The notes beneath the pieces were generated by a model. The model made no database searches. It was given only the letters and a program-made list of their open reading frames with translations, and was not told the origin of the DNA. Below, piece after piece: positions 18,207 through 21,502 of a stretch of 38,199 bases of DNA (its first letter is position 1; each line of letters starts with the position of its first letter). The position numbers and the translations under genes were made by a program. This DNA comes from Methanobacteriota archaeon (GTDB lineage Archaea; Thermoplasmatota; Poseidoniia; Poseidoniales; Thalassarchaeaceae), in the NCBI GenBank assembly GCA_002717835.1, contig PBBV01000007.1, forward strand, positions 40,134 through 78,332, given 5' to 3'.

Positions 18207-18281
18207 GCGCACGTGATCTAGCGGTTATGATACGAGGTTCCCAACCTCGTTACCCGGGTTCAAGTCCCGGCGTGCGCACCA
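18207..18281 (+). tRNA. tRNA-Gly (anticodon CCC), 3' CCA encoded
   Basis: Acceptor stem GCGCACG pairs perfectly with CGTGCGC, followed by discriminator A and an encoded CCA. The anticodon stem CGAGG/CCTCG encloses the loop TTCCCAA, giving anticodon CCC (glycine). The T arm is CCGGG-TTCAAGT-CCCGG and the variable region is 4 bases. The D arm is short (ATC/GAT). No intron. It sits alone between convergent-free neighbours, in the opposite direction to both the sdh operon and the surface-protein gene. Confidence 0.92.
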
Positions 18282-18312
18282 CGCGTCATTGTTGCCCACA
18301 AAGCGGAGGACG

Positions 18313-21300
18313 TCACTTCTGCTCTCTGTTAGAGATCATTATTGCAGCACCTAACAGCATCGTTAAGGCGGTGAAAGAAGAAAATCCGGGTAGTAACCCC
18401 CCCTCGTCCTCTTTCTCAATACAGCCTATTTGACCCGGAGTGGGTTGATGTTCTCCTTGAGGACATGCTATCTGATCTGCTGATCCAGCCTCTGGAACAT
18501 AGTAGTTTATTGATGAGTATATGCAATTCGAACGCCCTTCAATTGGCTGGTATGATCCTGCCTCACAAGGGGTCTGTTCTGTGGCCCCTGCCGCTTCAAC
18601 GAAGTATCCTGCATCAGCACTCATACATTCGGAGGAACCCGTCGATGGTTGATAAGTCCCCTCTGAGCAAGGCGTCTGCGTCAATTGAGATGATTCTCCG
18701 ACATAGTTGCCCTGATCAGCATCGATGCATTCTGACATACCTGATGTTGGCTGATATGTCCCTGGCGTGCATGCAATGAAATCAACGGAGCCCAGGCCGA
18801 CTGAATAGTGGCCGGCAGGGACGATTTTACAATTCGTCGACTTGCTAGAAGGCTGATATTCTCCCGCATCGCAGGGTATCTGTTCTCCCGTCCCGACCCC
18901 GTCTGCATAGTGACCGGGTTCGACATCCATGCAGGCCGTCTGGCCAGTTTGAGGTTGATACGTAGTTACCGGGCAGGGTATCTGACTTTTCGCTGCTCTT
19001 AGGGTGATATAGTGCCCCGGATCTGCCTCGATGCACGCAGATTGCCCTGACTGAGGCTGGTAAGTACCTGGTGAGCATTCAACCACATCGATGCTCCCCT
19101 CTGAGGCGACGTAGCTGCCGGGGAAAGCATCGATGCACCTCTCTGCACCTGCTGAGGGCTGATACGTCCCAGCTGAGCAATTCAGAGGAGCAGTGAAGGA
19201 TGCCCCCGGCGTATACGTCCCCGGAGACGTAGTTACGCAACCAGTCATCCCTTCCGCAGACTGGTATTGACCTGAGAGACATGATTGATAGGACGAAGCC
19301 ATCGATTCTGAGACATAATGTCCGGCAGGGGCCAAGAGGCACGAGTCTTGATTGAAGTCAGGTTGATATGAACCAGGATCACAAGATATTGGTTGGGTGG
19401 AAGCTGGAGTGTCAGTGTACTGTCCAGGGGATGTCGAGATGCATGATATCGCTCCATGTGCAGGCGTGTATGAGCCGGGTGAGCATGGAACCTCTTCTTC
19501 AGAGCCGCTATTCGCCACATAATATCCAGGCTGCGCCCTGACACACTCTGTCGACCCGCTCGAAGATGAAAATCTTCCAGCATTACAGGCAGTCTGCTCT
19601 ATTTTACCAGGAGTCCCCACCATGTACCCGGGATCAGCCAAGAGGCAAGAATCTGAGGCACTACCGGGCTGATAACTCCCAGCTGGGCATATCGTCTGAG
19701 AATATTCTCCAGAGGTTGGTACGTAATAGCCTGGATCAGATTCCAAACACTCCGTTTGAGCGGTGTTAGGCTGATATGTGCCCGGTGAGCAGACAACTAG
19801 ATTCCACGGATTCGAGGATTCAGCATAGTTTCCTCGAGGAGACTCAGTGCAAGAATTGTGCGAGTCTTGATACCAACCAGAAGGACAGCCGTTCGGGAAC
19901 ATGTCGAATGGGACGAGTATCCCATCGCCATCAATGTCGAGATTGGTTTGGAGAACAGAGGTGTTATCGAGCATCGGCATGAATATGGGAAGCCTGACCC
20001 CAGAATACGTGTTATGGACCGAACCATTGACTCCATTCCAAGCATATGCGCCCCAGCAATAAAGACTGTTATTAGCCATAATTCCGCATGTATTCGACGC
20101 CCCCATAACCACTGATGTGAAGTGTATGTCGTCATTTTCACCGCTCCAAACTGCATTCGGAGTTGATACATCTGCGCAATTATTGTTCCCGCCTCCATTG
20201 GAACCTCCCGTGTAATTGCAAAACCAGTCATTTGTACCATCGTAATCACCTGCGTTTCCGCCCCAGTTATCGCCCCAACAGAATGCACCAGACTCGTTGA
20301 ACAGAGCACAAGCTTGAGCAGTTGACGCTGTTATGCTGAGTGCGTGCTCCCCTGATGGAGCAATAGCCTCGGTGGGAACTACCTGAGCGGGATTGTTGCT
20401 GTTTGAACCAACACCTTGCTGACTTTCGGTGTTGGCGCCCCAGCAAATTATGGAGCCTGTATCCGTCAAACCACAAGAGAAAACCCAACCGACCGCGACT
20501 TGGACAAAAGAGAGATTTTCCTTGTCAGGTATGGTAATATCTGCGCTCTGGAACATCAACTTCCTCGGAGATTCGTGCAGATGACCGTAGTTGCATACGG
20601 GGTCGCCCGTTACAGATGTGGTCGCATCACCTCCCGTAACCCTGCAGTTCATGTCTGATCCCCAACAGTAGACCCCGTGATCGGTACCAGTGGCGCATGT
20701 ATGATCGCCTCCCATGCTGATGGAGGTTATGCTGACCCCAACAGGCATATCGACTAGTTGAGGCGTAACTACGTATTCTGCATATCCATTGTAGTGGCAC
20801 GAAGATGTACTCGCTCCTGTATTCGAGTCGCATATCTCACCATTCCCTAGCTGCCCACGGTTGTTATTCCCCCAGCAGTATCCATCCCCATCCGTGCTGA
20901 TAATGCAGCTATGATAGCTAGGCCCTTGGCTCAATGAGGCGGCTTGGACGCCAGGTGGGAGAGATACTTGTACTGGCGTAGTTGAATCCGTGGTCCCTCC
21001 GTTACCGAGCATTCCCATGGAATTCCTGCCCCAGCAGTAGACTTCTCCTTGATCGCTCAAAGCACATGCATGGTCCCAGTGAGCAGCTACTTCTACGATA
21101 TTCACACCAGATAGCCCGATAACATAGCTGGCATTGTTGTACGCTTCAATCCCAGTCAAGCCACTCCCTGTCTCACCGTAGTCAGTCCTGCCCCAGCAAA
21201 TTACACTTGAGTTGTCTGTCACCACGCAAGTGAACTGAATGCCTATTGACAGGGTATCATGTGTATCGATGTGCCCTTGATTACTACCAATCATTAGGTT

Positions 21301-21438
21301 CACGGCGTTCGTTGTCAAACTCTTTTCCGACTCGGGAAGCGATTCTTCCGCTGAAAAAGGGTCTGCTATAATCGCAACAGTGGTGAATGATATCATCAGT
21401 AAAGCAAGAGAGAGGGAGACTATCCGCTTGGTATGCAT
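18313..21438 (-). CDS. Giant secreted surface protein: RCC1-like propeller, 14 Cys repeats, PGF-CTERM-like tail
   Basis: A 1041-residue exported protein. N-terminal signal peptide (Lys-Arg then hydrophobic to about residue 25). Residues ~60-480 hold at least seven RCC1/BNR-like blades with repeated ICWG/YCWG strands (VICWGRTDYGETG, VYCWGRNSMGMLG, GYCWGNNNRGQLG and others), a beta-propeller. Residues 532-1007 are fourteen 34-residue repeats with two Cys each, like GCC2/GCC3 (ephrin-receptor-like) modules. The end is GGLLPGF, a hydrophobic helix and NREQK, matching PGF-CTERM sorting signals cut by archaeosortase A. It is likely lipid-anchored at the cell surface and involved in contact or substrate binding; the ligand is unknown. 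No neighbour shares its function. Confidence 0.85.
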   Translation of the reverse strand: MHTKRIVSLSLALLMISFTTVAIIADPFSAEESLPESEKSLTTNAVNLMIGSNQGHIDTHDTLSIGIQFTCVVTDNSSVICWGRTDYGETGSGLTGIEAYNNASYVIGLSGVNIVEVAAHWDHACALSDQGEVYCWGRNSMGMLGNGGTTDSTTPVQVSLPPGVQAASLSQGPSYHSCIISTDGDGYCWGNNNRGQLGNGEICDSNTGASTSSCHYNGYAEYVVTPQLVDMPVGVSITSISMGGDHTCATGTDHGVYCWGSDMNCRVTGGDATTSVTGDPVCNYGHLHESPRKLMFQSADITIPDKENLSFVQVAVGWVFSCGLTDTGSIICWGANTESQQGVGSNSNNPAQVVPTEAIAPSGEHALSITASTAQACALFNESGAFCWGDNWGGNAGDYDGTNDWFCNYTGGSNGGGNNNCADVSTPNAVWSGENDDIHFTSVVMGASNTCGIMANNSLYCWGAYAWNGVNGSVHNTYSGVRLPIFMPMLDNTSVLQTNLDIDGDGILVPFDMFPNGCPSGWYQDSHNSCTESPRGNYAESSNPWNLVVCSPGTYQPNTAQTECLESDPGYYVPTSGEYSQTICPAGSYQPGSASDSCLLADPGYMVGTPGKIEQTACNAGRFSSSSGSTECVRAQPGYYVANSGSEEEVPCSPGSYTPAHGAISCISTSPGQYTDTPASTQPISCDPGSYQPDFNQDSCLLAPAGHYVSESMASSYQSCLSGQYQSAEGMTGCVTTSPGTYTPGASFTAPLNCSAGTYQPSAGAERCIDAFPGSYVASEGSIDVVECSPGTYQPQSGQSACIEADPGHYITLRAAKSQIPCPVTTYQPQTGQTACMDVEPGHYADGVGTGEQIPCDAGEYQPSSKSTNCKIVPAGHYSVGLGSVDFIACTPGTYQPTSGMSECIDADQGNYVGESSQLTQTPCSEGTYQPSTGSSECMSADAGYFVEAAGATEQTPCEAGSYQPIEGRSNCIYSSINYYVPEAGSADQIACPQGEHQPTPGQIGCIEKEDEGGLLPGFSSFTALTMLLGAAIMISNREQK
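18418..19845 (-). repeat. Fourteen tandem 102-base coding repeats (34-residue Cys modules)
   Basis: Each unit follows DPGxY, a variable 11-residue stretch, CxxGxYQPxxGxxxC and a hydrophobic residue. The fourteen units are contiguous with constant 34-residue length and residues 532-1007 of the protein. Protein-level similarity is high at the PGxY, Cys and GTYQP positions and low elsewhere, so the array is old enough to have diverged and is not a recent DNA duplication. Each unit has two Cys, allowing one disulfide per unit. Confidence 0.85.
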
Positions 21439-21502
21439 GCCCGCTGAGATGGCGCAGAGAAAATAGAATTTTTGCGAGTCGAATGTTAGGAATACTTGAA
21501 AA

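Follow-up and report, generated by a model that had tools for sequence, protein, structure and literature searches.

A putative archaeal surface receptor with an RCC1-like head on a Cys-module rod, and apparent exchange of the head between lineages

The Cys-rich region of Mst1, a protein of the Chlamydomonas mastigoneme, forms one 26-nm domain (residues 1176-1853, 678 residues) with 26 disulfides, and Mst1 also contains Ig-like domains and a polyproline helix (PMC11015965). In Haloferax, archaeosortase A (ArtA) recognises and cleaves the PGF segment and also mediates lipid attachment (PMC8559796). For Ca. Poseidoniales, replacement of a resident proteorhodopsin gene copy by a transferred one has been described, and published accounts of contact in these archaea invoke flagella, thrombospondin and flotillin genes (PMC6461757).

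Here we analysed a surface-protein gene in a stretch of 38,199 nucleotides of archaeal DNA (the window). Each domain of the encoded protein is already known. Their combination and the head/rod exchange appear to be undescribed for these archaea: in the literature searched, with few subscription journals covered, no paper described RCC1 together with PF07699 or such an exchange, and nothing relevant was found for Marine Group II on archaeosortase or on proteins of the RCC1/ephrin type. The hosts are marine archaea known mainly from MAGs. A sequence-only reading of the window had proposed the domain order; the breadth of the family, the fixed module number, the variety of anchors and the exchange of heads go beyond it.

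Propeller, rod and family

The gene is a single ORF on the minus strand (18313..21438, start codon ATG) encoding 1041 aa, and full-length relatives (orthologues) were found in ten MAGs. All of its parts lie on the same strand. A signal peptide (residues ~1-25, 21364..21438) was recognised from MHTKR followed by a hydrophobic run, with a Kyte-Doolittle peak of 2.4 and a helix predicted at residues 5-20. It is followed by a seven-bladed RCC1-like head (residues ~51-500, 19939..21288), a linker with a DxDxDG motif plus a short cap module (C518/C530, 19792..19938), a rod of 14 Cys modules of 34 residues (C550-C1006, 18421..19791) and a PGF-hydrophobic-basic tail. The ORF, the signal peptide, the two kinds of Pfam match and the tail agree with the domain order and surface layout proposed before. 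The protein has 50 Cys in total, and so has the mature part of each of the 8 clean orthologues; all 50 are invariant among them, with none left over. The regularity of this pattern is far beyond chance.

In the N-terminal half of the protein, the Pfam families RCC1_2 (PF13540; 2.4e-41, 138.9 bits versus a cut-off of 22), RCC1 (PF00415; 3.6e-20, 72.7 bits versus 21.7) and WD40_RLD (1.7e-47, above cut-off) were matched. Seven C-x9-CWG motifs provide one Cys pair per blade (71/81, 125/135, 178/188, 248/258, 322/332, 377/387 and 451/461), and 3 extra pairs lie in the loops. UVR8 and HERC2 were the best solved relatives. A full-length AlphaFold model built from 8 sequences was discarded as too poor for use (pLDDT 49); its strands form seven groups. 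Judged from the profile matches and the Cys motifs, the head is an RCC1-like propeller, and the seven blades proposed by the sequence-only reading are borne out by the seven motifs and the RCC1_2 match.

The C-terminal half matched Ephrin_rec_like (PF07699; 4.9e-34, 116.3 bits versus a cut-off of 23.1) in 12 stretches, so that both families named earlier for HMM searches, PF00415 and PF07699, scored above cut-off. The rod contains 14 Cys pairs, from C550-C564 to C992-C1006, preceded by the short 518/530 pair of the cap. Their spacing is 14/20 without exception, which gives a constant period of 34 residues and 14 x 34 codons, i.e. the 1428 bases stated before. A gap-free three-module alignment (44 sequence stretches from 4 genomes, 106 columns) was used as input to AlphaFold2, and the predicted piece had a mean pLDDT of 95.2. 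In a Foldseek search with this model, the first five matches were chains of the Chlamydomonas mastigoneme (8wa2, E 1.8e-5, TMq 0.84). A sequence-profile search with the rod returned Mst1 (8e-27) as the sole strong solved relative. These predictions support the disulfide rod suggested earlier, in which the Cys would pair within the modules. Scaling its 489 residues by residue number to the 26 nm and 678 residues of Mst1, we infer a rod length of about 19 nm. The VKOR disulfide enzyme was not found in the 11 genomes of the genus. The earlier description of the protein as eukaryote-flavoured fits its closest solved relatives (Mst1, UVR8 and ephrin receptors), as a likeness only.

Relatives of the gene occur in 131 of 148 family genomes and in 10 of the 11 genera searched. 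Many matches per genome are common in related genera, and the window's own genome (79% complete) has one family member. When 293 genomes sampled evenly across the phylum were scanned, PF07699 was confined to two families of a single order, that of the window's genus, which is probably Ca. Poseidoniales (Marine Group II). Among 56 complete relatives, 16 Cys pairs were counted in 44, 15 in 11 and 13 in 1; most of the 56 were picked by open-frame length (~1000-1170), so the count is biased against very different numbers. The 15-pair set consists of ten records of the window's genus (three are duplicates) and L072. The family also includes longer proteins of 1600-3900 residues. Thus the module number is near-constant among most complete relatives of similar size, which raises a testable question: what sets the rod length?

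This near-constancy would also suit a lattice. The protein could be a structural part of the envelope or of a filament, with rods packed into an S-layer-like coat or a mastigoneme-like fibre and the propeller as assembly contact. The closest solved match of the rod is the filament-forming Mst1, and S-layer proteins of euryarchaea typically carry PGF-CTERM (PMC8559796). However, for one lattice protein it is unusual that genomes of related genera hold many matches each and that heads are swapped independently of rods (see below). The features that accompany the Cys-rich region in Mst1 are absent as well: no Ig-like domain was matched by Pfam in the 1041 aa, and the sequence has no polyproline stretch. 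We therefore regard a structural role as unlikely.

Several records in the wider family deserve mention. Open frames of 3900-4700 residues with PGF-CTERM-like ends were seen in G115:C7 and G127:C16; another of this set, in G028:C8 (L069), carries repeated propellers and rod modules. L079 and L125 share a gene with 98-99% identity in genomes assigned to two genera (G096, G028), probably by a misbinned contig or a very recent transfer. A contig titled Acidimicrobiaceae bacterium (L008) carries an archaeal gene 65% identical to that of the window and probably belongs to a mislabelled MAG.

The C-terminal tail and archaeosortase A

The tail (18316..18420, minus strand), delimited by sequence and hydropathy, comprises a linker, GGLLPGF (PGF at 18382-18390), a hydrophobic segment and NREQK, a weak basic end with one R and one K. 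With the signal peptide, all tripartite elements are present. The NCBIfam profile for PGF-CTERM (TIGR04126, cut-off 24.5 bits) did not match the window protein even at E<=1, and orthologue tails also scored below cut-off (G010 22.2, G005 20.0, G007 19.2 bits). So the PGF-CTERM-like tail of the sequence-only reading stands as a motif order and fails as a profile match. It is conserved across orthologues save L011/L034. PGF is kept in 10 of the 11 genus members; in G013 the tail reads LLPALG although ArtA is present.

ArtA was found in the window's genome (L002) with 86.3 bits against a TIGR04125 cut-off of 75, and its motifs SCSALQS, NAFRNAG and EFAHSY contain the expected Cys, Arg and His. The same genome encodes a second PGF-CTERM protein, which was above cut-off in the genome search and reached 19.7 bits on the whole-ORF scan. 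Hence the two things whose joint absence the earlier reading had named as fatal to its idea were both found. Over the family, ArtA is present in 124 of 148 genomes, and PGF-CTERM-like matches occur at E<=0.1 in 131 of 148, above cut-off in 41. The lhr-type helicase gene and artA (reference L047:3075-9329) are both missing in G005, G007, G010 and G011, either because the bins share a gap or because the region was really lost. As the adjacent helicase gene is absent from the same four bins, a bin gap is probable, and we do not take these absences as evidence that the subclade lost ArtA.

Bodies are alike across the family and anchors differ. PGF-type anchors occur in the window's genus and in L107/L081; the other relatives have an ordinary transmembrane (TM) segment, in most of them with a basic cytoplasmic extension of 20-58 residues behind it. 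Compared with most TM-type anchors of same-bodied relatives, the PGF-type tails are less hydrophobic; they are also short, with 6-9 residues following the hydrophobic segment.

Processing of the window tail by ArtA, as claimed before, is supported by the archaeosortase and the second PGF-CTERM protein; it is plausible and unproven, since TIGR04126 missed the tail and one orthologue lost PGF. We consider such processing fairly probable. A possible, less probable alternative concerns this step only and is compatible with a receptor: the PGF-like tail may be a short TM helix that archaeosortase leaves unprocessed. The missed profile and the LLPALG tail of G013 despite its ArtA fit such a helix, and a plain TM segment is what most relatives with the same body use in other genera. 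On the other hand, ArtA exists in this genome and most of the family, another PGF-CTERM protein is encoded in the genome, PGF is retained by nearly the whole genus, and the short, mildly hydrophobic tail with its few following residues is unlike most TM-type relatives.

Head exchange within the genus

Gene order around the orthologues is conserved (Cdc48, ALDH, the gene, a small membrane protein and the SdhA cluster). In the far clade the flanks are 67-99% identical, versus 54% for the gene itself. Three genomes (G006, G009 and G012) combine parts of both clades. Their heads are 90-92% identical to that of G007 from the far clade and 57-59% to that of the window, and their rods are 52-54% identical to G007 and 84-87% to the window. 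The flanking genes of L014 (G006) side with the window clade. On window coordinates, the exchanged segment spans 19645..21460 (minus strand), as located by sliding identity, max-chi-square and tree tests. Besides the signal peptide, the propeller and the first two modules, it takes in the region immediately before the start codon.

The 5' breakpoint (~21460) falls within the intergenic gap that precedes the start codon, and the 3' breakpoint (~19645) at codon 598. The max chi-square values were 646 and 464, given in the order of the points 21460 and 19645. In the permutation, carried out for the 19645 point only, 0 of 500 reached the observed value. The head data rejected the rod topology (delta logL 312, p-AU 3e-5), and the rod data rejected the head topology marginally (p-AU 0.038). 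In another genus, L070/L125 are 94% identical in the head and 57% in the rod; L117/L118 are discordant too (head 65%, rod 84%).

Every genome here is a MAG, so the discordance might reflect chimeric assembly. We hold this to be very improbable: the same pattern is seen in three separate genomes, which share 94-96% identity among themselves in head and rod alike, and a similar discordance exists in the second genus. By these identity and tree comparisons, the head has been exchanged between lineages of the genus, with rod, anchor and chromosomal position kept. An origin of either head outside the genus was unsupported, as the two head types, A and B, group as sisters on a single long branch.

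The dN/dS values (NG86) were 0.05-0.32 across head and rod. Both are under purifying selection; as domain averages, these low values gave no signal of positive selection, which was thus unsupported for either part.

A tRNA-Gly(CCC) gene (18207-18281, plus strand) lies directly downstream of the surface-protein gene. Between-clade identity peaks there, so it may act as flanking homology for exchange. Near 18300, identity between L009 and L010 falls a second time, from 83-92% inside the rod to 49-64% just after it, which suggests that a further recombined segment ends close to the tRNA.

Possible role and comparison with known systems

We favour, with somewhat better than even confidence, a membrane-anchored adhesin or receptor whose rod has a fixed length and whose head can be exchanged. 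The exported protein would present the propeller outside the cell, on a chain of 14 (+1) equally long, disulfide-closed modules that sets it about 15-20 nm off the membrane. Its PGF-type anchor would keep it at the surface, where archaeosortase A probably cuts the tail and adds lipid instead. The propeller would bind a putative partner, such as a particle, cell, glycan or virus. As partners or predators change, homologous recombination with other lineages could bring in a new head, and rod, anchor and locus would stay. Swapping of the head over a constant remainder suggests that it is the recognition part under pressure to change.

A narrower proposal makes the protein mainly a virus receptor or decoy, with head exchange as escape from infection. 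It accounts for replacement of the head only at a fixed locus, and RCC1-like proteins are carried by phages and viral contigs. However, the viral homologues found are propeller-only, none having the head-plus-rod architecture, and any partner-driven selection would give the same pattern. Virus-driven variation is thus doubtful as the main cause.

For the family as a whole, an adhesin/receptor reading implies a large archaeal set of modular surface receptors: rods with a fixed number of modules, interchangeable anchors, and heads passed between lineages by recombination, giving these planktonic archaea a variable recognition repertoire. We put this forward tentatively, at slightly less than even confidence. 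If true, it would be comparable in logic to tip exchange in bacterial adhesins or phage tail fibres. The family is a concrete, widespread candidate contact device for particles, cells and viruses. The exchange would mark the part facing changing selection, and it provides naturally occurring heads that ligand screens could use.

Compared with described systems, the rod is like the MST1 Cys-rich domain (PDB 8wa2, 8tx1), in which small disulfide-closed modules are strung into an extended rod outside the cell. Unlike MST1, for which no propeller is described and which forms filaments, the window protein has a propeller and modules of strictly 34 residues. The modules resemble PF07699, although here, unlike in the usual ones, 14 of them follow each other without interruption, each with 2 Cys in its 34 residues. 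The head shares seven repeats with the RCC1 signature with UVR8, RCC1 and HERC2; in contrast to these, it is exported and has a Cys pair in each blade, and there is no hint of a GTPase partner or of a role at chromatin. Signal peptide, tripartite tail (PGF, TM and basic end) and ArtA in the genome are shared with the Haloferax S-layer glycoprotein, a PGF-CTERM/ArtA substrate. The window tail, unlike those of such substrates, is below the TIGR04126 cut-off, and the body consists of RCC1 and PF07699 domains. Finally, whereas a whole proteorhodopsin gene copy was replaced in Ca. Poseidoniales, the exchanged unit here is part of a gene.
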